From assembly GCA_002104905.1 (NCBI GenBank), contig MCFE01000904.1:1-27409 (forward strand): a DNA stretch of 27,409 bases, read 5' to 3'. The notes under the pieces are model-generated. The model had not been told where the DNA came from. It saw only the letters and a program-made list of their open reading frames with translations, and made no database searches. Every line of letters begins with the position of its first letter. The first letter of the stretch is position 1. Below, one piece after another: positions 1,250 to 19,690 of the stretch. The stretch is from Basidiobolus meristosporus CBS 931.73 (Eukaryota; Basidiobolomycota; Basidiobolomycetes; Basidiobolales; Basidiobolaceae). Made by a program: the position numbers and the translations under genes.

Positions 1250-1670
1250 ATGTACAAACAACTTACCGCAGCTTGTGCTCTACTAATGGCCGTCAGTGCC
1301 TTTGGAAGTCCCGTGGATGTGTCAAGCACAAATCTCCGATAGGGATCCACAAAGCGGCCAAGTGGTGAAGAAGTTCTCGTCCAACAGGGAAGAGGATGCG
1401 CAGAATATTCGACACTACATCGATGGCATTCTCGGCCAGATGTCAAGGAATACGTTCGATCAGACACTCTCGGATAAGCAAGGAGTCGAGGAAGAGGAGG
1501 GCAATCCTGAAGAGGCCGAGCTATGGGGGAGATCCGGCGGATATGGGCGGCGAAGGGGCAGATACTGGGGACGAGGACGTTACGGTCGTTACGGTGGTTA
1601 TGGAGGTCGGTGGGGATATGGACGCTACGGGGGATATGGAGGGTATGGTGGATGCGACTGGGGTTGCTGA
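1250..1670 (+). pseudogene. Frameshifted type 1 GYG-rich secreted peptide gene
   Basis: The ATG at 1250 opens the usual type 1 signal peptide (MYKQLTAACALL...). A 17-nt deletion after codon 28, relative to the intact copy at 9191, shifts the frame and gives a TAG at 1340-1342, a 30-residue product. The remaining coding sequence stays open in the other frame down to the TGA at 1668-1670 and still encodes the acidic stretch, the Gly/Tyr/Arg domain and the C-D-W-G-C end. There is also an in-frame 12-nt loss between CAAGG repeats before the acidic region. Both losses are shared with the broken copy at 19298. An internal ATG at 1296 could give a signal-less protein, but I think the gene is dead. 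Confidence 0.8.
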
Positions 1671-1738
1671 GTAAACTCCTTAATAACAAGAATCAAGGCT
1701 TTCATTCACTCCAACAACACCACTTGTCTGTGTGCTTG

Positions 1739-1744
1739 AATAAA
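1739..1744 (+). terminator. Poly(A) signal of the type 1 copy at 1250
   Basis: AATAAA lies about 70 nt after the stop, within the conserved GTGTGCTTGAATAAAGTA context seen after most type 1 copies. Confidence 0.6.
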
Positions 1745-1761
1745 GTACCGTTGCATTTTAT

Positions 1762-2180
1762 CTATTGATAGTGAATGGCCATGTGATTATGACTCTTATT
1801 GAGAATGCTAGTTGGCAGAGACTTTCACTGCTTCAACGGTCACTTCTTTTCCGTTGCTTCGAGGTAGTCGCAGCAAACCTGAACCTTTTCCTGTTGCAAT
1901 CTTGCAGAGAAAGGTACAGGATTGCTTTGGCGGAGGGGCTGGGTGGTCCGGGAGTGATGCTTGCGGTATCTACCGTTCCGCAGGTCACGTGCTGGCAAGA
2001 GCTGATATAGATATTCGGGTCAGCAGTGCCACGGTTAAGGAGCAGAGAACGGTATTGAATCGCATTGTGTGTGTTTCAGCATTGAATTGAATACTGAAGA
2101 GGACTGTATAGAGCTATAAGGGGATAGGAACGGTAGGCAAGGAGAGATAGGTAGAGTTATCATAACAATGAAGGGGAATA
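1762..2180. repeat. Conserved block downstream of type 1 genes, copy 1
   Basis: This block of about 400 bp starts at a CTATCGATAG-like palindrome (here CTATTGATAG, 1762-1771) and contains an E-box-like CACGTG (1986-1991). It recurs after 3421, 6941, 9640, 11511 and 14752, and once without a gene before it (from 7573). This copy shares a 23-nt deletion near 1850-1870 with the copies at 3482, 11603 and 14835, relative to those at 7033, 7660 and 9723. I found no convincing plus-strand gene. Confidence 0.7.
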
Positions 2181-2269
2181 TTTGATCACTCCTGGGTGTA
2201 TCACCCTTACTTCAGTTTCTAGCCAAGCGAGTCCGTTCCTTGCTACTAAAATCACAAAAAGACTTGAAT

Positions 2270-2500
2270 TACGTGAAGTACGGGTGCTACAACTTTATAG
2301 TATGAGTGGCTTGTTATAGTGTATGTGACTTGGGTTTCTATTTGCTGTAAGTGTAAAACCGGATTGAATGCATGCATATATATTCGTAGAGCGAAATAAC
2401 TCACTGGCTCGTGGTAAAATTTATTCAAAACACAAATCTTTATAGCCTTTCCATTACTGATAGTGGTGGTGAAAGACACGCCCGGTTGGTGCGTAGATAA
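2270..2500. repeat. Spacer block X, copy 1, with a single decayed minisatellite unit
   Basis: The block carries the GGCTTGGGTTTC-like, GAATGCATGCATAT and GATAGTGGTGGTGAAAGA segments that recur near 4000-4230, 12120-12300, 15235-15625 and 17110-17500, with a diverged version near 19800-19990. At the site where other copies carry the 11-bp minisatellite, this one has a single degenerate unit (about 2478-2489). Confidence 0.65.
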
Positions 2501-2681
2501 GGTGAAAGGCTTTACCAGCTTAGGTATTTATCCCAAGTGACATGTAAGTATTACTGCTTAGTGAAAGGTTGCACGAGGTCGGGCTAGAGACGTGGGGACG
2601 AAACTGGAGAGATACGCGATAAGAGACGGGGATTAAGCCCTATTGAACCGCCATCTCTCCCTACAATGGCTGTCCCTCACC
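2501..2681. other. About 180 bp present only in this copy of the spacer
   Basis: In sister copies GCGTAGATAAG is followed directly by CCTTTCATACGAGGATTC. Here the two parts are separated by about 180 bp that is richer in G and C than its surroundings. I recognise no tRNA, mobile-element ends or reading frame in it. It is either an insertion here or a segment lost from the other copies. Confidence 0.5.
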
Positions 2682-3151
2682 GCCTTCCATACGAGGATTC
2701 TGATTTAACCTCTCGTCTGCCCTACAACACGGATAAGATCTTGTGATCATCTGATCTTTGTGGAGAATATCTTATGAGCGCTTGCTTAATAACCATGATG
2801 GATATGGTAGATAAATGCACTCATGTTGGAGTATCTATCACATGAAGCTGGCAGCATTCTACTTGTCAAGTTATTACTGACTGATACTTATAAGGTTCAT
2901 TGCAGTCACACTCAAAAATTATTATCAGCACCTACGATGAACTTACTTACAAGCAAGCTATATGCACTGTCAGATAAGTACAGAAGTATACTAATTTCTA
3001 TATTATAGCATCCTAACTTTAAGCTTATTTATTCCTCGTTCAGCTGACCTATACTTGAGGATGTATTGCGTAACTGACTAAGAATAAACACTGGAGTTGG
3101 ATGTAGATAGATCGGATCAAGAGATGTTTTAATCAACCGTGCCACTCTTTA
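2682..3151. other. Gene-free spacer homologous to parts of 10050-11259
   Basis: From about 2830 this matches 10056 onward, starting with the AGCTGGCAGCATTCTACTTG segment, and later matches 11025-11250. Several hundred bases present in the 10050-11025 copy are missing here. No gene is seen. Confidence 0.55.
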
Positions 3152-3421
3152 ATGTATATGAGTTGTGGCAGCAACGGAAGGGGATACGGTGATAGGATAC
3201 ATTGGTACATGGAGATGGCGAATGCCGACCAAGGAGTCGAGGAAGAGGAGGGCAATCCTGAAGAGGCCCAGCTATGGGGGAGATACGGCGGGTATGGGCG
3301 GTGGAGGGGCAGATACTGGGGACGAGGACGTTACGGTCGCTACGGTGGTTATGGAGGTCGGTGGGGATATGGACGCTACGGGAGATATGGAGGGTATGGT
3401 GGATGCGACTGGGGTTGCTGA
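3152..3421 (+). pseudogene. Chimeric GYG-domain reading frame without signal peptide, copy 1
   Basis: This open frame of 89 codons fuses about 26 codons of formerly non-coding spacer, the sequence normally upstream of type 2 genes (compare 5118-5175), to the acidic stretch and the complete Gly/Tyr/Arg domain of a type 1 gene, ending in C-D-W-G-C. It has no signal peptide and no TATA box at the usual distance. The sister at 11260 has the same junction, so the fusion predates the 7-kb duplication. Differences between the two are mostly amino-acid changing (for example Tyr/Asn, Gln/Glu, Arg/Pro, Arg/Leu, Gly/Glu plus an in-frame deletion), which suggests no selection on the protein. An intracellular protein is possible but not supported. 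Confidence 0.65.
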
Positions 3422-3458
3422 ATAATAAGAGTCAAGGCTTTCATTCACTCCAGCAACG

Positions 3459-3464
3459 AATAAA
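3459..3464 (+). terminator. Poly(A) signal after the chimera at 3152
   Basis: AATAAA lies in the type 1 3' UTR context. About 20 bases preceding it in other copies are deleted here. Confidence 0.5.
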
Positions 3465-3481
3465 GTACTGTCGCATTTTAT

Positions 3482-3880
3482 CTATCGATAGTGAATGGTC
3501 ATATGTATAACTCTTATTGTAAATGCTACTTGGCGGAGACGCCTACTTCTTTTCCGTTATTTGGAAGCAGTCGCAACAATCCTGTTCCTTTTCCTGTTGC
3601 AGTCTTACAGAGAAGGGTACATGATTGCTTTGGCGGAGGTGCTGGATGGTCCAAAAGTGATGCTTGCGGTATCTACCGGTCACGTGTTAGCATGAGCCGA
3701 GGTTGATACGCGGGTTAGCAATGCCACGGTTAAGGAGCAGAGAACGGTATTGAATCGCACTGTGTGTGTTTTACCGTCAAATCGAATATTAAATACGATT
3801 GTATAGAGCTATAAGGGGATAAGCCCGGTTGGCAAGGAGAGACAGGCAGTGAAGGGGAATATTCTATTAGAGTACTTTTT
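3482..3880. repeat. Conserved downstream block, copy 2
   Basis: It begins with the perfect palindrome CTATCGATAG (3482-3491), contains CACGTG (near 3680) and carries the shared 23-nt deletion. It is collinear with the block after 1744. Confidence 0.65.
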
Positions 3881-4175
3881 TCAGTCTTGGGAGTGCGCAT
3901 ATGATGCTAATCCATCATTCTTACTTCAGTTTCTAGCCAAGAGAGCCCATTTCTTGCTACTAGTAACATAAAAAGACTTGAATCACTACAATTTTATCGT
4001 GTGTATGACTTGATATAGTGTGTGTGGCTTGGGTTTCTATACGTAAACAAATGACATAGTTGCTACAAGTGCAAAAGCTGATTAAATGCATGCATATATT
4101 CGTAGAGTGAAATAACTCATTGGAATCTCTATAGTCTTACCGTTAGGCATATGACTGATAGTGGTGGTGAAAGAT

Positions 4176-4219
4176 GATGCCCAGTTGATGCCCCGTTGAT
4201 GCCCCGTTGATGCCCCGTT
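4176..4219. repeat. 11-bp minisatellite, 4 units
   Basis: There are four head-to-tail units of GATGCCCCGTT, the first with a C-to-A variant (GATGCCCAGTT). They lie between GTGGTGGTGAAA and GATGCGTAGATAAG, at the same position in spacer block X as the longer arrays. Confidence 0.9.
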
Positions 4220-5397
4220 GATGCGTAGATAAGCCTTTCATACGAGGATTCTGATTCAAAACACGGATTTTTGAGATTTTTCAGCTTTGTGGAGTGTATC
4301 TTTTGAGCGTTTGTTCAATAACCATGATGGCTATGGTAGATAAATACACTCATGTTAGAGTATCTACCGCATCAAGCTACTAGTCAAGTTATTACTTACA
4401 CTCTGATCACTGACTGACACTTAGACCATCATATCTGTGGTGTATAGAAGACCATAAGGTTCATTGTAGTCATTCTCAGCAGAAATACTCTGACCTCAGC
4501 ACTCACTGCTATGAACAGTTCTTCCTTCACTAAAGTCTCAATAGACTGTGATATTGACATGCTGGTATAGGTGATGCATGCTTTGTACAGTTCTCCATGG
4601 TTAAGTGCGGTAGGCCTCTACTTTCTTCATTTTAGACCCCACCAGAACCTTGGCTCGCTTCTAAATCAGTGTCGTACTAGTAGCATTCAGGTGCCATATC
4701 AATTATCGTATATTCTCCACAATATCCCGATATTTGAAGAGCTCATTTGAGATATTCACAAATAAGAATGAAAATGTGATCCTTGAGGCAATAAATGGTT
4801 GTCATTTAGTAACAATGACAGTACTTGAACCGCAACCCCTTCCAATATCAGCTAGCATGAACTTACAACAAGCTGTATGCACTGAGAATATATTAGATAA
4901 GTACACTAATTATTATATTGTCGCAGCCTAACTTGGAGCTTACTGAACCACCGTTAAGCTGAGCTATACACCAAATAAGTATATACTTCAGGATGTACTG
5001 CGGCAGGTTGACTGTATGCATAACCGACTATGATTAAATAATGGAGTTGGCTCAAGAGATGTCATCAACCATGCCGTTCTTTAGTAAATAGGACGATGTA
5101 AGGGGAGTTATGACATCAAAGGAAGGGGATAACGACGCTACAGTGACAGGATATATTGGTACATGGAGATGGCTGCAACTGGAGGTACAGACTCGTCAAC
5201 ACTCGGTTCACACAATCAATATCAACATATCTGCTAAACAAATGATCTTTTTAAGCTTTGAGTTGTGTTATGCGTGTTTGATTGAATGAAGAGCCACTAA
5301 ACAGCTTCTATTGAACGACCATATGGATCACCCGCAGCGCTTCCCACTGAAGGCAGAGGTGAAGTTGAGTGTCTTTAATCAGCTTCTGCTGTGCGGG
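4220..5397. other. Gene-free upstream region of the type 2 gene
   Basis: This matches 12292-13383 in order and includes the GGAAGGGGATAACGACGCTAC segment (about 5120), whose relative became the 5' part of the chimeras. The short frame at 4734-4931 has no recognisable feature. The last 100 bases before the TATA box (ATCACCCGCAGCGCTTC onward) are well conserved with 13300 and are probably promoter. Confidence 0.6.
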
Positions 5398-5406
5398 TAT
5401 ATATAT
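5398..5406 (+). promoter_or_regulatory. TATA box of the type 2 gene at 5442
   Basis: TATATATAT begins 44 nt before the ATG, within the conserved TGCGGGTATATATA context shared with 13384. It implies a 5' UTR of only about 15-20 nt if transcription starts about 30 nt downstream. Confidence 0.65.
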
Positions 5407-5441
5407 TCATAATCGGCTCGAGTGCTTCATTCAGATTCACA

Positions 5442-5861
5442 ATGTACAAACACTTCTCCATCACCTTTGCTCTCCTAATTGCCTCATGTGCAGTGGCAAT
5501 TCCTGTGCAGCCAGAAGTAACCAATGTAGCAAGTGCTTCCATCTCCATCCGGGACCCACAAAGCGGAAAAATGATAACACAATTCCAATCCACAAAAGAC
5601 GAAGATGCTCGTGCCCTTCTTGACGACATATTCGGTCAAATTTCAGGCGGTGGGTTGGCAAATGAACAAGTATCTCCTACAAGTGAAGACAATGACTCTG
5701 AAGAGGCCGAGCTTTGGGGCAGATATGGTGGCTATGGAAGGTGGGGGAGCAGATACTGGGGACGGGGACGTTACGGTCGCTATGGTGGCTACGGAGGCCG
5801 ATGGGGATATGGGCGCTACGGGGGATATGGTGGCTATGGTGGATGCGACTGGGGTTGCTAA
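5442..5861 (+). CDS. Type 2 secreted Gly/Tyr/Arg-rich peptide precursor (139 aa)
   Basis: The protein has a signal peptide (residues 1-19, with a likely A-V-A cleavage site before IPVQPE), a pro-region (20-79) with the family motif TNVASASISxRDPQSG (27-42), an acidic stretch (80-90) and a cationic Gly/Tyr/Arg/Trp domain (91-139) made of GRYGGYG-like repeats. The only cysteines after the signal peptide are C135 and C139 in the terminal C-D-W-G-C. The ATG was chosen because it opens the signal peptide, sits 44 nt after a TATA box and matches every other copy. It has no intron. From RYW onward the last 36 residues equal those of the type 1 gene at 6492 despite ten synonymous DNA differences, so the protein is under selection. 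It is probably exported. An antimicrobial, cell-wall or adhesive role would fit, but is inference. Confidence 0.85.
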   Translation: MYKHFSITFALLIASCAVAIPVQPEVTNVASASISIRDPQSGKMITQFQSTKDEDARALLDDIFGQISGGGLANEQVSPTSEDNDSEEAELWGRYGGYGRWGSRYWGRGRYGRYGGYGGRWGYGRYGGYGGYGGCDWGC

Positions 5862-5881
5862 TACACTACATCCTTACGTTA

Positions 5882-5887
5882 AATAAA
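5882..5887 (+). terminator. Poly(A) signal of the type 2 gene at 5442
   Basis: AATAAA lies about 20 nt after the TAA stop, in the CCTTACGTTAAATAAA context that recurs (with TTTAATAAA) at 13859. Confidence 0.6.
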
Positions 5888-6056
5888 CATCATAATGTCA
5901 ATGCTTCAATCTAAACCTCATCGCAATTAATAGAAGCCGCTCAGTGATGCTTACCAAGCTGCGGTAGGGAGAGAAAGTCAGATATGTGTATAGATAAGGT
6001 GGATGTCTAGGCAAAGATAAGTCTTATTGCAGTTTGGCAGTCGATTATCTTCCTAA

Positions 6057-6123
6057 ATGGTGCCAATCTTTACCTTCAAATGCTGACAATTTTTATCTTC
6101 AATGCTGTCAATCTTTACTTTTC
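6057..6123. repeat. Three degenerate 22-23 bp tandem repeats
   Basis: Units resembling AATGCTGTCAATCTTTAC start at 6057, 6079 and 6101. A matching array lies at 14011-14078, downstream of the other intact type 2 gene. Confidence 0.7.
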
Positions 6124-6418
6124 AATGGTGTGCTGTTAGTAAAGTGATTTTTTTCGCTTCATATTTGCCTAATCTTCCATGAATGCCGTCTATAGCTTTC
6201 TTATATTCATGTGGTGCTGTCGACCTGGACTGTACGAACCATTTTACTTTACGTTCTGCTTTCTAGAGTATCTAATGGTCTGACTACTACTAATATGACG
6301 ATTAATTAGTATATACTCATGGTGACACTATTCTAGAGGCTCTTATTGTATCTTCCTAATGCCTGTAGAATAGATGCAAAATATAATATATCGTTCGTCC
6401 GAAACCCATCAATTTCGC

Positions 6419-6446
6419 GAAGCTTCCTAGATGTGATGTCTATAAA
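6419..6446 (+). promoter_or_regulatory. Altered type 1 promoter: GAAGCTTC element and relocated TATAAA
   Basis: GAAGCTTC (6419-6426) is present, but the segment holding the usual TATATAAA (47 nt before the ATG in three other copies) is deleted here. A TATAAA at 6441-6446, where sister copies read ATCAATCAACC-like sequence, now lies 51 nt before the ATG at 6492 and could replace it. Confidence 0.55.
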
Positions 6447-6491
6447 CCTCCATCTTGGCCAAAAGCTGTATTGAAGTATTCAACATTCACA

Positions 6492-6941
6492 ATGTACAAA
6501 CAACTTACCGCAGCCTGTGCTCTACTAATGGTCGTCAGTGCCTTTGGAGCTCCCGTGGATGTGTCAAACACAAATGTAGCGAGCGCATCCATCTCTGATA
6601 GGGACCCACAAAGCGGCCAAGTGGTGAAGAAGTTCTCGTCCAACAGGGAGGAGGATGCGCAGAATATTCGACACTACATCGATGGCATTCTCGGCCAGAT
6701 GTCAAGGAATACGTTTGATCAGACTCTCTCGAGCAAGCAAGGCGCCGATCAAGGAGTTGAGGAAGAGGAGGGCAATCCAGAAGAGGCCGAGCTATGGGGT
6801 AGATACGGCGGATATGGGCGTCGGAGGGGCAGATACTGGGGACGAGGACGTTACGGTCGCTACGGTGGTTATGGAGGTCGGTGGGGGTATGGACGCTACG
6901 GGGGATATGGAGGGTATGGTGGATGCGACTGGGGTTGCTGA
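6492..6941 (+). CDS. Type 1 secreted Gly/Tyr/Arg-rich peptide precursor (149 aa)
   Basis: The protein has a signal peptide (1-19, likely A-F-G cleavage before APVDVS), a pro-region (20-85) containing TNVASASISDRDPQSG (27-42) and a conserved HYIDGILGQMSRNTFDQ segment (61-77), an acidic stretch (86-100, four Glu in a row) and a 48-residue domain (102-149) with ten Arg and repeated GRYGGYG. It ends in C145-D-W-G-C149, the only cysteines outside the signal peptide. The start is fixed by homology and by the signal peptide; an in-frame ATG 21 nt upstream has no homologous support. It has no intron. The layout of signal, acidic pro-part and cationic glycine-rich tail resembles glycine-rich host-defence peptide precursors such as nematode YGGYG peptides, but this is analogy, not demonstrated homology. 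Its promoter has lost the standard TATA box. Confidence 0.85.
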   Translation: MYKQLTAACALLMVVSAFGAPVDVSNTNVASASISDRDPQSGQVVKKFSSNREEDAQNIRHYIDGILGQMSRNTFDQTLSSKQGADQGVEEEEGNPEEAELWGRYGGYGRRRGRYWGRGRYGRYGGYGGRWGYGRYGGYGGYGGCDWGC

Positions 6942-7009
6942 GTAAACTCCTTAATAACAAGAATCAAGGCTTTCATTCACTCCAACAACACCACTTGTCT
7001 GTGTGCTTG

Positions 7010-7015
7010 AATAAA
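7010..7015 (+). terminator. Poly(A) signal of the type 1 gene at 6492
   Basis: AATAAA lies about 68 nt after the TGA stop, in the GTGTGCTTGAATAAAGTACC context. Confidence 0.65.
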
Positions 7016-7032
7016 GTACCGTTGCATTGTAT

Positions 7033-7470
7033 CTATCGATAGTGAATGGCCATGTGATTATGACTCTTATTTAGAGTGATAGCTGGCAGAGACCCTCACT
7101 GCTCCAAAGGTCACTTCTTTTCCGTTCTTCGCGATGTGTGTCTCGGGTTGTTTGGAGGTAATCGTAGCAATCCTGTTCCTTTTCCTGTTGCAATCTTGCA
7201 GAGAAGGGTACGGGATCGCTTTGGCGGAGGTGCTGGGCGGTCCGGAAGTGATGCTTGCGGTATCTACCGGTCACGTGTTGGCATGAGCCGAGGCTGGTAT
7301 GCAGGTTAGCAGTGCCACGGTTAAGGAGCAGAGAACGGTTTTGTATCGCATTGTGTGTGTTTCACCGTTGAATCGAATACTGAAGAGGACTGTATAGAGC
7401 TATAAGGAGATAAGCACGGTTGGCAAGGAGAGACAGGCAGAGCTACCATAACAATGAAGGGGAGCATCAC
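7033..7470. repeat. Conserved downstream block, copy 3
   Basis: It begins with CTATCGATAG (7033-7042). It does not have the 23-nt deletion seen in four other copies. On the minus strand the frame matching that at 9769-9972 is open for about 65 codons here; its end has lost the usual TAG and runs a few codons further. Confidence 0.65.
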
Positions 7471-7572
7471 CCTTACTTCAGTTTCTAGCTAAGAGAGCCC
7501 GTTCCTTGCTACTAGTATCGCCACGGTGGATACACTCCATTCATCTTTTGCTCAGAATGATGTGTAGGCATA

Positions 7573-8215
7573 TTCTAGGCTTTCGTTCACTAGTCTGTTA
7601 CAGTTGCTCTTTCATTCTGGCTGTGTATATCTAATGGGATGCATTCTTTATCACTCCTGGCTAAACAATGCGGTTTATTGAGGATGCTAGCTGACAGATA
7701 CTCTTACTGCTCCAACAGTCACTTCTTTTCCGTTCTTCGCGATAGGCACCTCGAGTTGTTTGGATGTTATAGCAGCTATCCTGTTCCTGCGATTGTAACA
7801 ATCTTGCAGAGAAGGATACAGGACGGCTTGAGCAGAGGTACTGGGAGATTCAGGGGTGATGCTGGAGTAGGTCACACGTTGGCATGAGCCAGCCGAGAAT
7901 GGTAGTTGTTGTGCAGTATCTTCAGGAGTATTCACCAACTCTACATTGTAAGTATTTGGTTAGTAAGGCTCACTGGTTGCGGCTAGTTGGGTTATATACT
8001 GATACATACTTAGTAACGCACTAGAGGATTGTGCTGAAGTTGTCGTGCCGGCTAGTAGTGCCATGGTCAAGGAGCAGAAAACGGTACTGAATCGCATTGT
8101 GTGTGCCTCTGTGTGTATGCCTGATGAATAAGGTGAACATTACAAGCGATTTTATAGGAAATTAGCCCGGCTTGTAAGGAGAGACAGGCTGAGCTACCAT
8201 GATGAAGCGGAATAT
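7573..8215. repeat. Orphan downstream block, copy 4, without its gene
   Basis: AGGCTTTCGTTCAC (7577-7590) is a remnant of the type 1 3' UTR, and the conserved block follows from about 7683. The gene body and poly(A) signal are missing, so this marks a deleted family member. About 100 bp near 7930-8045 are not found in the other copies. Confidence 0.55.
7687..7938 (-). other. Conserved antisense reading frame in the downstream block (diverged copy)
   Basis: The frame is open from 7938 down to a TAG at 7687-7689 and has no ATG start. It ends in I-A-K-N-G-K-E-V-T-V-G-A-V-R-V-S, closely matching the frame at 9769-9972. In a hand alignment of 60 codons against 9769-9948, 23 of 43 differences fall in third codon positions of this strand, 8 in second and 12 in first. 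That suggests it was, or is, the 3' end of a convergent gene. I recognise no domain. It may be an inactive remnant. Confidence 0.3.
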
Positions 8216-8639
8216 TCTTTATTATTCACCAAATTCGCTTTGGGCTAAGCACTTTTTTTAAAGGAGAAACCATCGAACTCAAGTGATGATCCTTGTATTG
8301 TTCGATGACTAGTGTTAGCCTGCATATGTGGCATGGATGCGTTGCCTGCTCGCTTCCATTAGTATCGTAACGCCGAATATGGTGAGTGCGATCTAGGCGT
8401 AAATAAAGTGTTGTAGTTTCTGTTACACTGAGGCTTTAAATTTTGAGTGCATGCTTAGTATATAGGCATTGCCCATTTGTAGCCCACTCATTCATCTCCT
8501 GATGAAGGAATCAGATGGTGGTGATGACTTCTGGTGAAGAACGGCAAATGGTGGTGGTCAAAGAAAAAGATGACCAGTATGGGATTGATAACGTAAAATA
8601 TACACGAGGGGAGGCTCCGTTTATTCTTTGGTGTTCACC

Positions 8640-8822
8640 ATGCGCAAGTACTTTTCCATCGCTCTAATACTTTTTAATGTGACAAGTGTGTCCATCTCTT
8701 CTCCAAAGTCGGGAAACGGTGTGTAGGAAGAAGGTGCTCGCACCAGAGAGGGCAGGTGACGAGGTCGTTATGGTCACTTCGGGGACTATGATGGTCGCTG
8801 GGAACTTGGAGGGTTTGCTTGA
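8640..8822 (+). pseudogene. Old decayed GYG-family relic
   Basis: From the ATG at 8640 the frame reads a signal-peptide-like start (MRKYFSIALILF), then V-S-I-S-S-P-K-S-G, a worn form of the family motif SISxRDPQSG, then a TAG at 8724-8726. Beyond it the same frame holds an R-G-R-Y-G-H-F-G-D-Y stretch resembling the Gly/Tyr domain, a second stop (TGA, 8757-8759) and a final TGA at 8820-8822. Order and motifs match the family, but identity is low and the middle is largely missing. It is either a third, older subfamily or a heavily eroded copy. Confidence 0.5.
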
Positions 8823-9151: not shown

Positions 9152-9190
9152 GACTGGTGCTGAGCTTTATTTGAGTATTCAACATTCACA

Positions 9191-9640
9191 ATGTACAAAC
9201 AACTTACCGCAGCTTGTGCTCTACTAGTGGCCGTCAATGCCTTTGGAAGTCCCGTGGATGTGTCAAGCACAAATGTAGCGAGCGCATCCATCTCCGATAG
9301 GGATCCACAAAGTGGCCAAGTGGTGAAGAGGTTCTCGTCCAACAAGGAGGAGGATGCGCAGAATATTCGACACTACATCGATGGCATTCTCGGCCAGATG
9401 TCAAGAAATACGTTCGATCAGACCCTCTCGGATAAGCAAGACGCCGACCAAGATGTCGAGGAAGAGGAGGGCAATCCAGAAGAGGCCCAGCTATGGGGGA
9501 GATACGGTGGATATGGGCGGCGGAGGGGCAGATACTGGGGACGAGGACACTACGGTCGCTACGGTGGTTATGGAGGTCGATGGGGATATGGACGCTACGG
9601 GGGATATGGATGGTATGGTGGATGCGACTGGGGTTGCTAA
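9191..9640 (+). CDS. Type 1 secreted Gly/Tyr/Arg-rich peptide precursor (149 aa)
   Basis: It is intact and collinear with the type 1 gene at 6492: signal peptide 1-19 (A-F-G before SPVDVS), pro-region with TNVASASISDRDPQSG, acidic stretch and the 48-residue basic Gly/Tyr domain ending C-D-W-G-C. Differences within the domain are Arg to His (GRGHYG) and Gly to Trp (GYGWYGG), both keeping the aromatic/basic character. It stops with TAA (9638-9640) rather than TGA. The start is supported by the 47-nt TATA spacing and the CATTCACAATG context shared with all type 1 copies. It corresponds to the dead copy at 1250 in the first duplication unit, so at least one of each such pair has been lost. Confidence 0.85.
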   Translation: MYKQLTAACALLVAVNAFGSPVDVSSTNVASASISDRDPQSGQVVKRFSSNKEEDAQNIRHYIDGILGQMSRNTFDQTLSDKQDADQDVEEEEGNPEEAQLWGRYGGYGRRRGRYWGRGHYGRYGGYGGRWGYGRYGGYGWYGGCDWGC

Positions 9641-9705: not shown

Positions 9706-9722
9706 GTACCGTTGCATTGTAT

Positions 9723-11259: not shown

Positions 11260-11511
11260 ATGAATATGAGTTGTGGCAGCAACGGAAGGGGATACGGTGA
11301 TAGGATACATTGGTACATGGAGATGGCGAATGCCGACCAAGGAGTCGAGGAAGAGGAGGGCAATCCTGAAGAGGCCGAGCTATGGGGGAGATACGGCGGG
11401 TATGGGCCGTGGAGGGGCAGATACTGGGGACGAGGACGTTACGGTCGTTACGGTGGTTATGGAGGTCTGTGGGAATATGGAGGCTATGGTGGATGCGACT
11501 GGGGTTGCTGA
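11260..11511 (+). pseudogene. Chimeric GYG-domain reading frame without signal peptide, copy 2
   Basis: It has the same spacer-to-type-1 fusion as at 3152, and the frame stays open for 83 codons. The Gly/Tyr domain is shortened by an in-frame deletion and carries Arg to Pro, Arg to Leu and Gly to Glu changes that weaken the repeat. There is no signal peptide and no TATA box at the normal position. It keeps the acidic stretch and the C-D-W-G-C end. Probably non-functional. Confidence 0.65.
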
Positions 11512-11585: not shown

Positions 11586-11602
11586 GTACTGTCGCATTTT
11601 GT

Positions 11603-12030: not shown

Positions 12031-12258
12031 CTATTAGAGTACTTTTTTCAGTCTTGGGAGTACGCATATGATTACTTCAGTTTCTAGCCAAGAGAGCCCG
12101 TTCCTTGCTACTAGTAACATAGAAAGACTTCAAAACGTCATAGTTGCTATAAGCGCAAACCTGATTGAATGCATGCATATAATCGTAGAGTGAAATAACT
12201 CATTGAAATCTCTATAGTCTTACCGTTGGGCATATGACTGATAGTGGTGGTGAAAGAT

Positions 12259-12291
12259 GATGCCCAGTTGATGCCCCGTTGATGCCCCGTT
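12259..12291. repeat. 11-bp minisatellite, 3 units
   Basis: There are three GATGCCCCGTT units, the first with the same C-to-A variant as the first unit at 4176. That shared variant shows the two arrays are orthologous positions in the duplicated segments. Confidence 0.9.
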
Positions 12292-13383
12292 GATGCGTAG
12301 ATAAGCCTTTCATACGAGGATTCTGATTCAAATACGTCTGCCTCAAACACGGATTTTGACCAGGACAAGACCTTGTGACCATCTGAGCTTTGTGGAGTGT
12401 ATCTAACCATGACGGCTATGGTAGATAAATACACTCATGCTGGAGTATCTATCACATCAGTACTATCATTACTTACACTCTGATCACTGACTGACACCTA
12501 CACCATCATATCTTTGGTGTATAGAAGATCATAAGGTTTGTCGTAGTCATTTTCACAGAACCATTATCTCCTCAGTATTCTCAGCAGAAATACTCTGACC
12601 TCAGCACTCACTGCTATGAGCAGTTCTTCCTTCACTAAATATCAAGTACCCTATATTCTCCACAATATCAAGTACCCTATATTCTCCACAATATCCCAAT
12701 ATTTGAAGATATTTGCAACAGATACTGTACAACTAAGAATGAAAATGGAATGCTTGAGGCTATCAATGGTTGTCATTTAGTAATAATGATCGCAGCTAGT
12801 TCTCAGTGCTTGAACCGCAGCCCCTTCCAATATCAGCTAGCATGAACTTACAACAAGCTATATGCACTGAGAATCTATTCGATAAGTACACTAATTTTTA
12901 TATTATCGCAGCCTAACTTGGAGCTTACTAATTCCGCTTACCATACACCGACCAAGTATATTCTTCAGGATTTACTGCGGTAGGTTAACTGTATGTGTAA
13001 CCGACTGGGAAGAAATACTGGAGTTATCTCAAGAGATGTCATTAATCATGCCATTCTTTAGTAAATATGATGATATAAAGGGAGTTATGGCATCAACGGA
13101 AGGGGATAACGACGCTACAGTGACAGGATACATTGGTACATGGAGATGGCTGCAACTGGAAGTTCACACAATCAATATCAACATATGGCTAACCTGCAAC
13201 ATATCTGCTAAACAAATGATCTTGTGAAGCTTTTCGTTGTGTTATGCGTGTTTGATTGAATGAAGAGCCACTAAACAGTTTCTATTGAACGATCGTATGG
13301 ATCACCCGCAGCGCTTCTCACTGAAGGCAGAGGTAAAGTTGAGTGTCTTTAATAAGCTCCATCATCAGCTTCTGCTATGCGGG
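12292..13383. other. Gene-free upstream region of the second type 2 gene
   Basis: It is collinear with 4220-5397. No gene is seen; the frame at 13036-13227 overlaps the conserved spacer segment that gave rise to the chimeras and is not supported. Confidence 0.6.
12639..12690. repeat. 26-bp exact direct duplication
   Basis: ATATCAAGTACCCTATATTC plus TCCACA occurs twice head to tail (12639-12664 and 12665-12690). The corresponding place near 4695-4725 has a single, slightly different copy, so this duplication arose after the 7-kb event. Confidence 0.9.
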
Positions 13384-13391
13384 TATATATA
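13384..13391 (+). promoter_or_regulatory. TATA box of the type 2 gene at 13419
   Basis: TATATATA lies 35 nt before the ATG, nine nt closer than at 5442 because the CTCGAGTGC-like segment between them is missing here. Confidence 0.65.
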
Positions 13392-13418
13392 CTCATAATC
13401 AGCTCATTCAGATTCACA

Positions 13419-13838
13419 ATGTACAAGCACCTCTCCATCCCCTTTGCTCTCCTAATTGCCTCATATGCAGTGGCAACTCCTGTGCAGCCAGAAGCAACCA
13501 ATGTAGCAAGTGCTTCCATCTCCATCCGGGACCCACAAAGCGGCAAAATGATAACACAATTCCAATCCGCAAAAGACGAAGATGCTCGCGCCATTCTTGA
13601 CGACATATTCGGCCAAATGTCAGGCGGTGGGTTGGCAGATGAAGAAGTGTCTCCTACAAGTGAAGACACTGACTCTGAAGAGGCCGAGCTTTGGGGTAGA
13701 TATGGTGGCTATGGAAGGTGGGGGAGCAGATACTGGGGACGAGGACGTTACAGTCGCTATGGTGGCTACGGAGGCCGATGGGGATATGGGCGTTACGGGG
13801 GATATGGTGGCTATGGTGGATGCGACTGGGGTTGCTAA
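13419..13838 (+). CDS. Type 2 secreted Gly/Tyr/Arg-rich peptide precursor (139 aa)
   Basis: It is intact and the same length as the copy at 5442. It has a signal peptide 1-19 (A-V-A before TPVQPE), the TNVASASISIRDPQSG motif, an acidic segment rich in Glu and Asp (about 74-90) and the 48-residue Gly/Tyr/Arg/Trp domain ending C135-D-W-G-C139. The main change in the domain is GRYGRYGG to GRYSRYGG. The start is chosen by homology and by the signal peptide. It has its own TATA box and an AATAAA 20 nt after the stop. It lies about 460 nt upstream of a type 1 gene on the same strand, as does its partner at 5442 (about 630 nt), so each type 2 gene is followed by a type 1 gene. Confidence 0.85.
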   Translation: MYKHLSIPFALLIASYAVATPVQPEATNVASASISIRDPQSGKMITQFQSAKDEDARAILDDIFGQMSGGGLADEEVSPTSEDTDSEEAELWGRYGGYGRWGSRYWGRGRYSRYGGYGGRWGYGRYGGYGGYGGCDWGC

Positions 13839-13858
13839 TGCACTACATCCTTACGTTT

Positions 13859-13864
13859 AATAAA
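13859..13864 (+). terminator. Poly(A) signal of the type 2 gene at 13419
   Basis: AATAAA lies about 20 nt after the TAA stop. Confidence 0.6.
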
Positions 13865-14010
13865 TATCATAATGACAATGCTCATCGTAATTAATCAGTG
13901 ATGTTTACCAAGCTGCAGTATGGAGAGAAAGTCGGATATGTGTATGGATAAGGTGGATGTCTAGGCAAAGATAAGTCTTATTGCAGTTTGGCTGTCAATT
14001 ATCTTCATAA

Positions 14011-14078
14011 ATGGTGCCAATCTTTACCTTTAAATGCGGTCAATTTTTACCTTCAATGCTGTCAATTTTTACCTTTTA
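14011..14078. repeat. Three degenerate 22-23 bp tandem repeats
   Basis: Units resembling AATGCTGTCAATTTTTACC match those at 6057-6123, and a further worn unit precedes them near 13990. Confidence 0.65.
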
Positions 14079-14210
14079 ATGGTGTACTGTTAGTAGTCAT
14101 TTTTTTTCGCATGATAACACTACTCTAGAAGCTCTTATTGTATCTTCCTAATGCCTGTAGAATAGATGCAAAATATAATATATCGTTCGTCCGAAACCCA
14201 TCGATTCCGT

Positions 14211-14263
14211 GAAGCTTCCTAGATGCGATATCAATCAACCTCGATCTTGTATCTGTATATAAA
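14211..14263 (+). promoter_or_regulatory. Type 1 promoter: GAAGCTTC element and TATA box
   Basis: GAAGCTTC is at 14211-14218 and TATATAAA at 14256-14263, exactly 47 nt before the ATG at 14303. Confidence 0.7.
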
Positions 14264-14302
14264 GGCTGGTGCTGAGCTTTATTGGAGTATTCAACATTCA
14301 CA

Positions 14303-14752
14303 ATGTACAAACAACTTACCGCAGCTTGTGCTCTACTAATGGTCGTCAGTGCCTTTGGAAGTCCCGTAGATGTGTCAAGCACAAATGTAGCGAGCGCATC
14401 CATCTCCGATAAGAACCCGCAAAGCGGTCAAATGGTGAAGAAGTTCTCGTCCAACAAGGAAGAGGATGCGCAGAATATTCGACACTACATCGATGGCATT
14501 CTCGGCCAGATGTCGAGGAATACGTTTGATCAGACTATCTCGAGCAAGCAAGGCGCCGACCAAGGAGTCGAGGAAGAGGAGGGCAATCCTGAAGAGGCCC
14601 AGCTATGGGGGAGATACGGTGGATATGGGCGGCGAAGGGGCAGATACTGGGGACGAGGAGGTTACGGTCGCTACGGTGGTTATGGAGGTCGGTGGGGATA
14701 TGGACGCTACGGGGGATATGGAGGGTATGGTGGATGCGACTGGGGTTGCTGA
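14303..14752 (+). CDS. Type 1 secreted Gly/Tyr/Arg-rich peptide precursor (149 aa)
   Basis: It is intact and the same length as the copies at 6492 and 9191. It has a signal peptide 1-19 (A-F-G before SPVDVS), a pro-region in which DRDPQSG has become DKNPQSG, a four-Glu acidic stretch and a 48-residue domain with one Arg to Gly change (GRGGYG), still ending C-D-W-G-C. The start is set by homology, signal peptide and the 47-nt TATA spacing; an upstream in-frame ATG at 14282 is unlikely. No intron. A conserved downstream block follows, then a junction to spacer block X. Confidence 0.85.
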   Translation: MYKQLTAACALLMVVSAFGSPVDVSSTNVASASISDKNPQSGQMVKKFSSNKEEDAQNIRHYIDGILGQMSRNTFDQTISSKQGADQGVEEEEGNPEEAQLWGRYGGYGRRRGRYWGRGGYGRYGGYGGRWGYGRYGGYGGYGGCDWGC

Positions 14753-14811
14753 ATAATAACAAGGATCAAGGCTTTCATTCACTCCAACAACACAGCTTGT
14801 CTGTGTGCTTG

Positions 14812-14817
14812 AATAAA
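14812..14817 (+). terminator. Poly(A) signal of the type 1 gene at 14303
   Basis: AATAAA lies about 60 nt after the TGA stop. Confidence 0.65.
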
Positions 14818-14834
14818 GTATCGTTGCATTTTAT

Positions 14835-15235
14835 CTATCGATAGTGAATGGCCATGTGATTATGACTCCTATTGAGAATGCTAGTTAGCAGAGACTCTCA
14901 CTGCTCCAACGGTCACTTCTTTTCCGTAGTTTCGAGGTAATCGCAGCAAACCTGAACCTTTTCCTGTTGCAATCTTGCAGAGAAAGGTACAGGATTGCTT
15001 TGGCGGAGGTGCCGGGTGGTCCGGAAGTTATGCCTACGGTGTCCAATGGCCCGGCAGTCACGTGTTGCCATGAGCCAAGGTTGATACGCAGGTTGGCAGT
15101 ACCATGTTTAAGGAGGAGAGAACGGTATTGAGTCGTATTGTGAGTACTTCACCGTTGAATCGAATATTAAAGAAGATTGTGTAGAGCCATAAGGGGATAT
15201 GCAGAGTTACTAAGATAATGAAGGGGAATAATATA
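14835..15235. repeat. Conserved downstream block, copy 7
   Basis: It begins with CTATCGATAG (14835-14844) and carries the 23-nt deletion. Its last part (from 15137) is also the left end of the 1.88-kb tandem duplication. Confidence 0.65.
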
Positions 15236-15409
15236 CAACTTTATCGTGTGTATGACTTGTTATAGTGTGTGTGGCTTGGGTTTCGATACGTAAACAAATG
15301 GCATAGTTGCTTTGATTGAATGCATGCATATAATCGTAGAGTGAAATAACTCATTGAAATCTCTATAGTCTTACCGTTGGGCATATAACTGATAGTGGTG
15401 GTGAAAGAT

Positions 15410-15616
15410 GATGCCCCGTTGATGCCCCGTTGATGCCCCGTTGATGCCCCGTTGATGCCCCGTTGATGCCCCGTTGATGCCCGTTGATGCCCCGTTGATG
15501 CCCCGTTGATGCCCCGTTGATGCCCCGTTGATGCCCCGTTGATGCCCGTTGATGCCCCGTTGATGCCCCGTTGATGCCCCGTTGATGCCCCGTTGATGCC
15601 CCGTTGATGCCCCGTT
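15410..15616. repeat. 11-bp minisatellite, 19 units
   Basis: Seventeen units of GATGCCCCGTT and two of the 10-bp variant GATGCCCGTT (15476-15485, 15541-15550) are arranged head to tail. The reverse strand is open in several frames because the unit contains no stop; that coding appearance is a by-product of the repeat. Confidence 0.95.
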
Positions 15617-16842
15617 GATGCGTAGATAAGCCTTTCATACGAGGATTCTGATTCAAAATCGTCTGCCTCAAAACACGGATTTTGACCAGGACAAGATCTT
15701 GTGACCATCTGAGCTTTGTGGAGTGTATCTAACCATGACGGCTATGGTAGATAAATACACTCATGATGAAGTATCTATCACATCAAGCTACTAGTCAAGT
15801 TATTACTTACACTCTGATCACTGACTGACACTTACACCATCATATCTCTGGTGTATAGAAGACCATAAGGTTCATTGTAGTCATTCTCAGCAGAAATACT
15901 CACTTACTGCTATTCCCAACTCTTCCTTCACAGGTATGGCTGAAGTCTCAATATACTGAGAGATTGGCAGGCTTTGTACAGTACTCCAGCAGTCTTTCGG
16001 AGATGCTTTCACTATTCAGCTCACTACAGCACACTAAGCCTAAACATGACATCAGCCAAGCAACAAGCATTATTTCTTGGTACTCATAGTAAATTCCAAC
16101 ACATGACTTGCTTTGTATTCCCACTTCAGGTAGCTATAGGATATACATAAGACTCTGCTTCATACAGTATGTTGGTGCTATGTTGACTATTGCTAAGTGA
16201 ATATATGCTCTACTGGTAAAATATAAAGTCGGTAAACTTATTCCTGTCCGCACAATAGATACCTTTGTAGCCTAAAGCATGTTGGTGGACTTTGTGGTAT
16301 ATGTTTTCTACAATGTCCTAATATTTGAACACGCTTGCTACAACTCATTGGAGATATTCACAAATGAGACTATACAACTAAAAATGATCACTTAATAAAT
16401 GGACGTTGTTTGATAAGAATCCTTCAATACTTGAACCAGCTTATACGAATATCAAACGAACTATATGCACTACAAGGGAATATATTATACAAGTACAGAA
16501 GTACAATAATCGTTATATTTCGTATACCACCGTTCAGCTGAGCTATACACTGACTCCATATATACTTCAGGGCGTGCTGTGGCATGAGTAACCGGCTAGG
16601 AATAAATACTGGAGTTAGATGTAACTAGATAGGTTTATCAAGCTCCATCATCATTCCATTCCTGAAGACACCGACTCTGATGGCAGCAACGGAAGGAGAT
16701 TAGGACGCTACGTTTCTGGGGCACATTGGGACATGGAGATGGCTGCAACTGGAGTCAAAATATGGTCCACACAATCAATAGCGGTATCCTCAATATGTGG
16801 CTAATATGTACAATCCGCTCAACTCCTTCATTCAGATTCAAA

Positions 16843-17021
16843 ATGCACTAGCACTTCTTCATCACCATTACTCTCTTAATCGCTTCGTGTGCAGTGGCGA
16901 TTCCTGTGCAGCCAGAAGTGACCAATATAGCAAGTGCTTCCATCTCCATCCGGGACCCACAAAGCGGCAAAATGATATCACAATTTCAATCCACAAAAGA
17001 CGAGGATACTCGCGCCATTCT
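16843..17021 (+). pseudogene. Truncated type 2 gene at the tandem duplication junction
   Basis: It is the first 179 bp of a type 2 copy. The start reads ATG-CAC-TAG, so codon 3 is a stop where intact copies have AAA/AAG. The rest still resembles the signal peptide and the ISIRDPQSGK motif. It ends abruptly at CGCCATTCT where the next 1.88-kb copy begins. The acidic and Gly/Tyr parts are absent here but present in the sister at 18718. There is no clear TATA box at the usual distance. Confidence 0.85.
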
Positions 17022-18896
17022 ATTGTGAGTACTTCACCGTTGAATCGAATATTAAAGAAGATTGTGTAGAGCCATAAGGGGATATGCAGAGTTACTAAGA
17101 TAATGAAGGGGAATAATATACAACTTTATCGTGTGTATGACTTGTTATAGTGTGTGTGGCTTGGGTTTCGATACGTAAACAAATGGCATAGTTGCTTTGA
17201 TTGAATGCATGCATATAATCGTAGAGTGAAATAACTCATTGAAATCTCTATAGTCTTACCGTTGGGCATATAACTGATAGTGGTGGTGAAAGATGATGCC
17301 GTGATGCCCGTTGATGCCCGTTGATGCCCGTTGATGCCCCGTTGATGCCCCGTTGATTTGATGCCCCGTTGATGCCCCGTTGATGCCCCGTTGATGCCCC
17401 GTTGATGCCCCGTTGATGCCCCGTTGATGCCCCGTTGATGCCCCGTTGATGCCCCGTTGATGCCCCGTTGATGCCCCGTTGATGCCCCGTTGATGCGTAG
17501 ATAAGCCTTTCATACGAGGATTCTGATTCAAAATCGTCTGCCTCAAAACACGGATTTTGACCAGGACAAGATCTTGTGACCATCTGAGCTTTGTGGAGTG
17601 TATCTAACCATGACGGCTATGGTAGATAAATACACTCATGATGAAGTATCTATCACATCAAGCTACTAGTCAAGTTATTACTTACACTCTGATCACTGAC
17701 TGACACTTACACCATCATATCTCTGGTGTATAGAAGACCATAAGGTTCATTGTAGTCATTCTCAGCAGAAATACTCACTTACTGCTATTCCCAACTCTTC
17801 CTTCACAGGTATGGCTGAAGTCTCAATATACTGAGAGATTGGCAGGCTTTGTACAGTACTCCAGCAGTCTTTCGGAGATGCTTTCACTATTCAGCTCACT
17901 ACAGCACACTAAGCCTAAACATGACATCAGCCAAGCAACAAGCATTATTTCTTGGTACTCATAGTAAATTCCAACACATGACTTGCTTTGTATTCCCACT
18001 TCAGGTAGCTATAGGATATACATAAGACTCTGCTTCATACAGTATGTTGGTGCTATGTTGACTATTGCTAAGTGAATATATGCTCTACTGGTAAAATATA
18101 AAGTCGGTAAACTTATTCCTGTCCGCACAATAGATACCTTTGTAGCCTAAAGCATGTTGGTGGACTTTGTGGTATATGTTTTCTACAATGTCCTAATATT
18201 TGAACACGCTTGCTACAACTCATTGGAGATATTCACAAATGAGACTATACAACTAAAAATGATCACTTAATAAATGGACGTTGTTTGATAAGAATCCTTC
18301 AATACTTGAACCAGCTTATACGAATATCAAACGAACTATATGCACTACAAGGGAATATATTATACAAGTACAGAAGTACAATAATCGTTATATTTCGTAT
18401 ACCACCGTTCAGCTGAGCTATACACTGACTCCATATATACTTCAGGGCGTGCTGTGGCATGAGTAACCGGCTAGGAATAAATACTGGAGTTAGATGTAAC
18501 TAGATAGGTTTATCAAGCTCCATCATCATTCCATTCCTGAAGACACCGACTCTGATGGCAGCAACGGAAGGAGATTAGGACGCTACGTTTCTGGGGCACA
18601 TTGGGACATGGAGATGGCTGCAACTGGAGTCAAAATATGGTCCACACAATCAATAGCGGTATCCTCAATATGTGGCTAATATGTACAATCCGCTCAACTC
18701 CTTCATTCAGATTCAAAATGCACTAGCACTTCTTCATCACCATTACTCTCTTAATCGCTTCGTGTGCAGTGGCGATTCCTGTGCAGCCAGAAGTGACCAA
18801 TATAGCAAGTGCTTCCATCTCCATCCGGGACCCACAAAGCGGCAAAATGATATCACAATTTCAATCCACAAAAGACGAGGATACTCGCGCCATTCT
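17022..18896. repeat. 1.88-kb tandem duplication, copy 2 (1875 bp)
   Basis: It repeats 15137-17021 without an obvious difference outside the minisatellite and continues into the full-length type 2 pseudogene at 18718. The ORF-sized stretch at 18281-18466 encodes the same residues as 16406-16591. The gene-free spacer here is about 17500-18717. Confidence 0.9.
17295..17491. repeat. 11-bp minisatellite, about 19 units, rearranged 5' end
   Basis: There are fourteen 11-bp units, three consecutive 10-bp variants (17303-17332), one 8-bp and one 5-bp degenerate unit. All irregular units lie in the first third, while the 3' part is homogeneous. Confidence 0.95.
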
Positions 18897-19077
18897 TGAC
18901 GACATATTCGGCCAAATGTCAGGCGGTGGGTTGACAAATGAACAAGTGAAGACACTGACTCTGAAGAGGCCGAGCTTTGGGGTAGATATGGTGGCTATGG
19001 AATACAGGGGAGTAGATACTGGGGACGAGGACGTTACGGTCGTTATGGTGCTTACGGATTCAATTGAAGTGTTTCTT
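18718..19077 (+). pseudogene. Type 2 gene with early stop and frameshift
   Basis: It has the same ATG-CAC-TAG start as 16843 (stop at 18724-18726). Past the tandem duplication end it continues through DDIFGQMSGGG, then lacks 13 nt between two CAAGT repeats (junction at 18943-18947), which shifts the frame. In the shifted frame the Gly/Tyr domain reads to R-Y-G-A-Y-G-F-N and a TGA at 19075-19077, losing the second half of the domain and the C-D-W-G-C end. A frame from GTG/ATG-like codons near 18769 is open to 19170 but out of register with the family after 18947. Dead. Confidence 0.85.
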
Positions 19078-19231
19078 TTTCGCAGCATTTTTACCAGCCG
19101 CGTTAGTGGAAACACACATACTTACTTCATCAGTATGCTTGTCCCTATCTTACTAACAACAGTATACTAGAGCTAGCACAAAGCTTCCTAATGCTTGTAA
19201 CATAGATTCGACTGGAACCCATCAATTCTGC

Positions 19232-19277
19232 GAAGTGTCCTAGATGCAATGTCTATTAACCTGGTTTAGTATATAAA
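19232..19277 (+). promoter_or_regulatory. Decayed type 1 promoter
   Basis: The GAAGCTTC element is mutated to GAAGTGTC (19232-19239). TATATAAA (19270-19277) is present but only 28 nt before the ATG at 19298, 19 nt closer than normal, probably too close for a usual start site upstream of the ATG. Confidence 0.5.
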
Positions 19278-19297
19278 TCGAGTGTTCAACATTCACA

Positions 19298-19690
19298 ATG
19301 TACAAACAACTTACCGCAGCTTGTGCTCTACTAATGGTCGCCAGTGCCTTTGGAAGTCCCGTGGATGCGTCAAGCACAAATCTCCGATAGAAACCCACAA
19401 AGCGGCCTAGTGGTGAAGAAGTTCTCGTCCAACAGGGAAGAGGAAGCGCAGAATACTCGACACTACATCGATGTTATTCTCAGCCAGATGTCAAGGAATA
19501 CGCTCGATCAGACTCTCTGGAGCAATCAAGGAGTCGAGGAAGAGCAGGGTAATCCAGAAGAGGCCCAGCTAGGGGGGAGATACGGCGGAGGAGCAGATAC
19601 TGGGGACGAGAAGGTTATGGAGGGCGTTGGGGATATGGGCGTTACGGGGGATACGGAGGATGCAATATACTCCATTCAACTTCATCATGA
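19298..19690 (+). pseudogene. Frameshifted, truncated type 1 gene nearest the telomere
   Basis: The type 1 signal peptide is followed by the same 17-nt deletion as at 1250, giving a TAG at 19388-19390. It also shares the in-frame 12-nt loss before the acidic stretch. Further losses remove about half of the Gly/Tyr domain. In the family frame the 3' part reads R-Y-W-G-R-E-G-Y-G-G-R-W and ends G-G-C-N plus seven unrelated residues at a TGA (19688-19690), so the final D-W-G-C is gone. AATAAA follows at 19702-19707. Clearly non-functional. Confidence 0.85.

Follow-up and report, generated by a model that had tools for sequence, protein, structure and literature searches.

What are the short, basic-tailed proteins encoded near one chromosome end of the fungus Basidiobolus meristosporus CBS 931.73 made for, and which part of them is kept constant? 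The stretch of DNA analysed here, called the window throughout, is the whole 27,409-nucleotide contig MCFE01000904.1 (C1207 in our numbering), a telomere-ended contig of a genome of 89 Mb and 1311 contigs. It carries genes of two kinds, type A and type B, whose products join an acidic stretch to a strongly basic tail. We consider it most probable, at roughly 0.5, that the A/B proteins and their relatives are precursors in which the acidic part would mask a cationic payload, to be set free by a cut between the two; the payload is most likely antimicrobial. The observations on which this proposal is built are a common plan, a pairing of charges, conservation of the tail, modular exchange, and searches in which no relatives were detected beyond Basidiobolus.

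A common plan with different tails

All five intact genes of the window, two of type A and three of type B, lie on the plus strand; they are intronless open reading frames (ORFs), as a previous sequence-only reading of this DNA had stated, and each product has a putative secretion start, namely a hydrophobic N-terminus judged by eye (as in all classes described below). That reading was also right in that an acidic stretch is followed in all five by a 48-residue tail closing with C-D-W-G-C. The pro-part motif SISxRDPQSG, which it held to be common to all, occurs in four of them, and the gene at 14303 has SISDKNPQSG in its place.

Weak matches of a type B query in the genome led to relatives which follow the same plan but differ in the tail. 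Members of classes C and D stand in tandem, about 1.2 kb apart, on contig C650, class C being found also on C184, and have tails such as (GRGRW)n; class E (C25 and C184) has (RRYGPF)n-like tails, and the tail of class P (P0014; C792, C34 and C702) ends in CYDWDC. Overall, 58 intact genes were taken in (39 A/B, 8 C, 7 D, 2 E and 2 P). The C-D-W-G-C ending, proposed earlier as a hallmark, is one of types A and B, while the (GRGRW)n and (RRYGPF)n relatives have no cysteines. What the classes share is a hydrophobic start, a variable pro-part, an acidic stretch ending in EE[A/T]xL, and a tail of 33-80 residues composed of Arg, Gly and Trp/Tyr/Phe, in which Arg often stands beside an aromatic residue and Gly is interspersed. 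As a separate observation, one class P copy (C34:16300-17500) has a frame that is open except for a single stop, a TAG replacing the Trp of the junction.

A profile of 11 such proteins found four proteins of a second species, B. ranarum (P0020-P0023), and outside Basidiobolus only three hits, bacterial or unnamed, which are apparently compositional. The same plan with differing tail repeats thus occurs in P0020 and P0022 of B. ranarum, the tail of P0022 being RGG-like, as well as in all six classes of B. meristosporus. An additional motif resembling that of the junction, T[P/S]EE[A/G/S]Q[L/M]RR, lies earlier in the proteins of class D, in one of the two class E genes and in the four B. ranarum proteins. 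A second profile returned P0021-P0023 again and another protein, P0026, at an E value of 7.8 only (among the 7999 scored candidates, those with the most words in common); direct comparison confirmed the likeness of P0026 to P0021 (52 of 68 residues identical). Three proteins were discounted because their likeness seemed to be one of composition: P0015 and P0024, which resemble kinase-type ATPases with a Gly/Tyr/Arg end, and P0025, annotated, by name alone, as a CpsD/CapB kinase. Judging from these searches, the superfamily appears to be detectable only within Basidiobolus; since the database searches rely on shared five-residue words, remote relatives elsewhere may be missed.

Charges are paired across the junction

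Nine representatives, P0021 not among them, have a charge of -7 to -15 in the 30 residues that precede the tail and one of +7 to +18 in the tail itself; in eight of them the sum over pro-part and tail is between -5 and +5. The pairing extends to the wider set of 57 ORFs: in 52 of these an acidic stretch of -5 to -16 adjoins a tail of +7 to +18, and the five deviating ORFs have damaged or shortened tails. Tail and acidic-stretch charges are correlated (r = -0.75, p = 0.012) among 10 representatives, which are related and hence not independent. The positive charge of the tail is of one kind: in 57 distinct members, 631 Arg and no Lys were counted in the tails (P0021 with its Lys-rich end being left out), whereas the prepro parts have 373 Lys and 227 Arg.

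At the junction, EE and L are present in all 24 distinct windows that fitted our regular expression, a conservation which is not independent evidence, as the pattern demanded L and limited two letters to E/D and E/T. In the same 24 windows, Trp stands right after the L and Arg two positions further on, without exception. An AlphaFold2 model of a B protein suggests a possible helix at residues 52-80, in the pro-part.

The tail is strongly conserved

The ratio of non-synonymous to synonymous change (dN/dS) is lower in the tail than in the pro-part in every class compared: 0.08 against 0.60 in class A (10 sequences), 0.09 against 0.21 in class B (27 sequences), 0.07 against 0.26 in class C (8 sequences), 0.03 against 0.17 in class D (5 sequences) and 0.06 against 0.23 in class E (2 sequences). 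Between A and B it is 0.06 against 0.12, with a saturated pro-part dS of 3.0. Of the 39 A/B places, 38 were used, C390:114970 being left out, and they gave 37 distinct sequences. A chimeric A gene (C356:10514-10930) raises the class A tail dS. In classes A-D the tail has the lowest ratio of any part of the protein; the statement is restricted to these four because the ratio of the class E acidic stretch was uncomputable, dS being saturated. A codon-column test likewise found relatively fewer amino-acid-changing columns in the tail than in the prepro region (p = 0.0004 for A, 0.0036 for C, 0.012 for D with seven genes, and 0.046 for E).

The family had been thought to be a fast-evolving one. 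For types A and B this did not hold: with a dN/dS of 0.06-0.09 the tail is strongly conserved, and it is the pro-part that changes more. A fast-evolving effector family was rejected for A/B, because the tail is their most conserved part.

Tails and pro-parts appear to be exchangeable

The A and B genes of the two pairs in the window were compared without gaps, anchored at the tail. Counted per 20 bases, 70-100% of the positions agree between EEAEL and the stop codon, and 15-50% do so over the 40 bases preceding this stretch and some 130 bases following it; gapped blastn is concordant. Moreover, the chimeric A gene on C356, one of the 10 A sequences, carries a B-type tail, its identity being 0.979 to the nearest B tail and 0.868 to the nearest A tail. 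In B. ranarum, P0021 combines a similar prepro part with an unrelated cationic, Cys-containing end, which is also found in P0026, an uncharacterised, Lys-rich and Cys-containing protein with a hydrophobic start of its own. In these comparisons, taken together, tail and pro-part behave as modules.

P0026 itself had no Pfam match above the cut-off and no match among PDB sequences. Its structure model, built from two sequences, has a mean pLDDT (predicted local distance difference test score) of 57 and gave no meaningful match to PDB structures. In B. meristosporus no relatives of P0026 were found, in a search that had no positive control.

Comparison with known families and precursors

The expectation that these proteins would match no characterised family was borne out by Pfam, NCBIfam and PDB sequence searches. 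Pfam gave nothing above the cut-off across the classes scanned, NCBIfam gave no match (a weak test, the library being bacterial and archaeal), and no PDB sequence was found below an E value of 0.19. The best Pfam match, at an E value of 7e-4 and 19.7 bits (cut-off 23), was to Phosphodiest; it lies in the pro-part of a class D protein, which includes the charged stretch, and was set aside. Two of the type B sequences scanned, the gene at 9191 and the broken copy at 1317, weakly match the Gly-rich family PF07172 (GRP), with E values of 0.22 and 0.47; their scores, 12.6 and 11.6 bits, are too low for membership, the cut-off being 30. Among the titles and abstract beginnings listed in searches of the open-licence Basidiobolus literature, none dealt with this peptide family.

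Nematode neuropeptide-like peptides and caenacins, as described in PMC6780910, are encoded by many genes; they are basic peptides with much Gly and many aromatic residues, and YGGYG and YGGWG are motifs typical of them. The A and B tails contain YGGYG, which is missing where the tail is of the (GRGRW)n or (RRYGPF)n kind; the Basidiobolus genes differ in having the acidic stretch, the EExxL junction, Arg as the sole source of positive charge, and a C-D-W-G-C ending or none of that kind. No match named as nematode was among the 15 with an E value up to 1e-3 (1778 candidates) or the 24 with an E value up to 10 (6636 candidates). Membership of the nematode family failed this homology test, and we regard the likeness as one of type.

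A parallel in organisation is offered by animal antimicrobial peptides (AMPs), which are usually freed from an anionic propiece, their precursors consisting of a signal peptide, an anionic pro-part and a cationic mature part (PMC2866484). An anionic stretch adjoining the cationic part, one mark of such precursors, is present here. On the other hand, no homology to them was detected, Basidiobolus is an early-diverging fungus, and in classes A-D it is the tail and not the prepro part that is the more constrained.

Kex2-processed repeat proteins (KEPs) deserve separate mention, as CBS 931.73 has 43 of them, the most among the 1461 strains surveyed, according to PMC7329392; like the precursors proposed here, they are secreted proteins with repeats. 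None of the 57 members satisfied a simplified script of the rule given there (at least three repeats of at least 8 residues between KR, KK, RK or RR sites), which speaks against KEP membership. Type S-3 of Basidiobolus is described in the same paper as rich in Tyr and Asp, unlike the proteins analysed here. No match to a UstYa (DUF3328) gene, which would be expected near a peptide precursor of the UstYa-modified kind, was found in the genome, nor in 14 control genomes.

A masked cationic payload is the most likely explanation

How could such a precursor work? A signal peptide would direct the protein out of the cell, and within the secretory path the acidic end of the pro-part would mask the tail with its Arg-only charge and its aromatic residues and Gly. 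A protease would probably cut at or beside the Leu of the EE[A/T]xL-[W/Y/R] junction and free a polycation of 33-80 residues, which might then bind anionic surfaces, such as bacterial envelopes, competing microbes or polyanions. In the vertebrate gut and in dung, where the fungus lives, the freed tail would most likely act as an antimicrobial or in competition; Basidiobolus is called an amphibian gastrointestinal symbiont in the title of PMC7466969. We infer that the protein is secreted and cut and that its tail is released and active. We prefer an antimicrobial or competition role because the tails are short, the charges are paired, the payloads are exchanged and the habitat would suit it.

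A number of observations weigh against this proposal. The codon-column test was not significant in class B (p = 0.098) or in class P (p = 0.59, two genes). The tails of broken genes (five usable of seven) show 5 synonymous and 3 non-synonymous changes, against 10 and 7 in 24 intact ones; as broken tails show no extra amino-acid change, part of the tail conservation may be due to gene conversion. One class E gene sums to a net charge of +15, and masking would be incomplete there. The junction has no conserved dibasic site, and P0021 and P0023, alike at the front, have no EExxL junction at all; P0021 may also be a fused gene model, its contig being 2,093 bases long. A and B share an additional front patch of 47 bases, 81% identical, at the SIS..PQSG motif, so their fronts are not wholly unrelated DNA. 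The AlphaFold2 model of the B protein is of low confidence (mean pLDDT 49.7), which proves nothing. Finally, Arg, Gly and aromatic residues are also the grammar of condensing and adhesive proteins.

It is this last point, an Arg-aromatic-Gly make-up without Lys, that makes an adhesive or coacervating role the main rival, which we hold to be possible, if distinctly less likely. The tail of a structural or adhesive protein would condense with polyanions or with the acidic pro-part, through cation-pi coacervation and Cys or Tyr cross-links, for example in the adhesive drop of capilliconidia or in the spore wall. The tails with their Arg adjoining Tyr, Trp or Phe, and with Gly between, fit the sticker-and-spacer reading of such sequences, and capilliconidia bearing adhesive material in a genus of Basidiobolaceae (PMC13370150) count in its favour. 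Nevertheless, the charge-paired acidic stretch, the conserved junction and the swapped Cys-containing end would better suit a released payload, and at 33-80 residues the tails are short beside structural repeat proteins, most of which are far longer. Low divergence of the tails is also unlike the arms race expected of an effector which would act against a host or competitor by binding nucleic acid or other polyanions through an RGG/RGY-like tail. The tail of P0022 and an expansion near chromosome ends of a vertebrate-associated fungus would agree with such an effector, but no uptake motif was recognised and the large array on C650 lies away from contig ends, and we consider it improbable.

Two further ideas seem very unlikely to us. 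A KEP, or a precursor of ribosomally synthesised and post-translationally modified peptides (RiPPs), would yield several short repeats, and tails of class E and of P0020 do have RR every 6-8 residues in a strain that is the richest in KEPs in the survey cited above; still, the scripted rule was satisfied by none of the members, type A tails have no dibasic site, and the description of S-3 does not resemble them. It may also be asked if the proteins are a functionless, low-complexity by-product of chromosome ends, conserved through recent duplication and gene conversion. The many broken copies, the recurrence of one lesion on several contigs and the equal change of broken and intact tails all point that way. 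We nonetheless give this idea little credence: tail dS reaches 0.08-1.0 with a dN/dS of 0.03-0.09 in classes A-E, two E genes on different contigs included, and the plan is retained in a second species, B. ranarum.

If the masked-payload proposal is extended to all classes, a modular Basidiobolus system may be envisaged, in which an EExxL prepro part would be combined with exchangeable cationic payloads to form a gut antimicrobial arsenal, with leucine-directed instead of dibasic release. The payloads would comprise Arg-only Gly/Tyr/Trp tails, (GRGRW)n, (RRYGPF)n, RGG-like tails and the Cys-containing domain of B. ranarum, and diversification would have proceeded through tandem arrays and copying between chromosome ends. 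We put this broader picture forward as tentative. To our knowledge, these payloads are unlike known fungal peptides. Were it right, an early-diverging gut fungus would possess an unrecognised superfamily of Arg-aromatic peptides, each supplied with an acidic mask of its own, together with a cleavage junction of a new kind and payload exchange between gene copies, and how Basidiobolus keeps its place among gut bacteria would become testable.

A/B genes across the genome

The full-length B protein has a match with an open frame on another contig at an E value of 1.8e-95, and for this reason the A/B family is not a product of chance. A type B query has at least 149 whole and partial matches in its own genome (the best 150 of 174 candidates having been scored). 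Intact A/B genes, meaning those of full length with no stop, number at least 39 (28 B and 11 A) on 13 contigs, the counts being lower bounds, and on any one contig all of them lie on the same strand. An intact B gene follows 8 of the 11 intact A genes at a distance of 0.9-1.1 kb downstream, start to start.

On the six contigs longer than 50 kb (C356, C640, C390, C517, C881 and C584), all 14 genes are no more than 20 kb away from the nearer end and face it; five of the 13 contigs are shorter than 30 kb, and on these five closeness to an end means little. TTAGGG arrays stand at ends of the window, of C1281 and of C136, the last of which holds only broken or partial copies. Telomere adjacency, claimed from the window sequence, is thus shown for three contigs. 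The facing ends of C1123, C1164 and C390 showed no TTAGGG array, and neither did the nine contig starts that were inspected. A missing telomere at contig starts says little, because telomere patterns in the assembly are far commoner in the forward than in the reverse sense (6978 against 73), and further A/B contigs are likely to be telomere-adjacent as well. One deletion is common to broken B copies on five contigs (the window, C356, C640, C966 and C1164), and this recurrence suggests copying between chromosome ends.

A two-type family of putative precursors near chromosome ends, with an acidic segment ahead of a basic tail, is therefore supported for A/B, and the chromosome-end setting does not extend to the largest array, that on C650. 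On the whole, the sequence-only reading is partly supported.

The locus in the window

The features of the window are collected in Table 1. Broken copies were located by tblastn without the low-complexity filter; of the seven or more claimed before, six are clear, and a seventh is reached only by counting the weak match at 8760. The tblastn matches of three clear ones, 1250-1667, 3215-3418 and 11323-11508, stop 3 bases short of the ends given in the table.

Table 1. Gene copies of the A/B family and the telomere array in the window.
Feature	Position	Strand	Basis and remarks
Type B, broken copy	1250..1670	+	Frame shifted by a short pro-part deletion; own-genome matches, alignment
Tail-only fragment	3215..3421	+	No signal peptide; tblastn
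Type A, intact gene, 139 aa	5442..5861	+	Tail 5715-5858; ORF call, own-genome matches, in profile alignment
Type B, intact gene, 149 aa	6492..6941	+	Tail 6795-6938; ORF call; query of own-genome search
Weak tail-like match, 19 residues	8760..8816	+	Uncertain; tblastn, E about 2e-4
Type B, intact gene, 149 aa	9191..9640	+	ORF call, own-genome matches, tblastn
Tail-only fragment	11323..11511	+	No signal peptide; tblastn
Type A, intact gene, 139 aa	13419..13838	+	Second segmental copy; ORF call, own-genome matches, tblastn
Type B, intact gene, 149 aa	14303..14752	+	Second segmental copy; ORF call, own-genome matches, tblastn
Type A, front fragment	16843..17022	+	tblastn
Type A, broken copy	18718..19058	+	Frame change, 3' end missing; tblastn
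Type B, broken copy	19298..19660	+	tblastn
TTAGGG telomere repeat, 33 copies	27211..27409	+	

Comparison of the window with itself by blastn revealed a tandem segmental duplication of about 8 kb, in pieces and about 87% identical (for example 4696-6157 against 12665-14110, and 6318-7416 against 14110-15203). A second tandem duplication, of 1.9 kb (15136-17021 against 17021-18896), is 99.4% identical and apparently far younger. Because these segments are repeated, the number of genes in the window partly reflects segmental duplication. The duplicated segments also contain an 11-bp minisatellite, TGATGCCCCGT, in differing lengths (4175-4224, 12258-12296, 15409-15621 and 17302-17496). An Rfam scan of the window gave no match.

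An ORF of 154 codons on the minus strand (24156-24620), placed between the A/B copies and the telomere, has no Pfam match. Positions 20001-23000 recur at 87-92% identity as a whole on C1123, C1164, C966 and C1065, about half on C584 and as a shorter piece on C640, and by this sequence likeness the region is a block common to chromosome-end regions. About 290 bases near 21639-21928 have at least 34 further matches (the best 40 of 217 candidates having been scored). Upstream of the genes, TATA[A/T]A was absent before two C genes and one D gene; the other 6 of the 9 upstream stretches examined (a raw count with no chance control), those of the window genes at 5442, 13419, 6492 and 9191, of one E gene and of one P gene, have it at a distance of 35-57 bases from the ATG.

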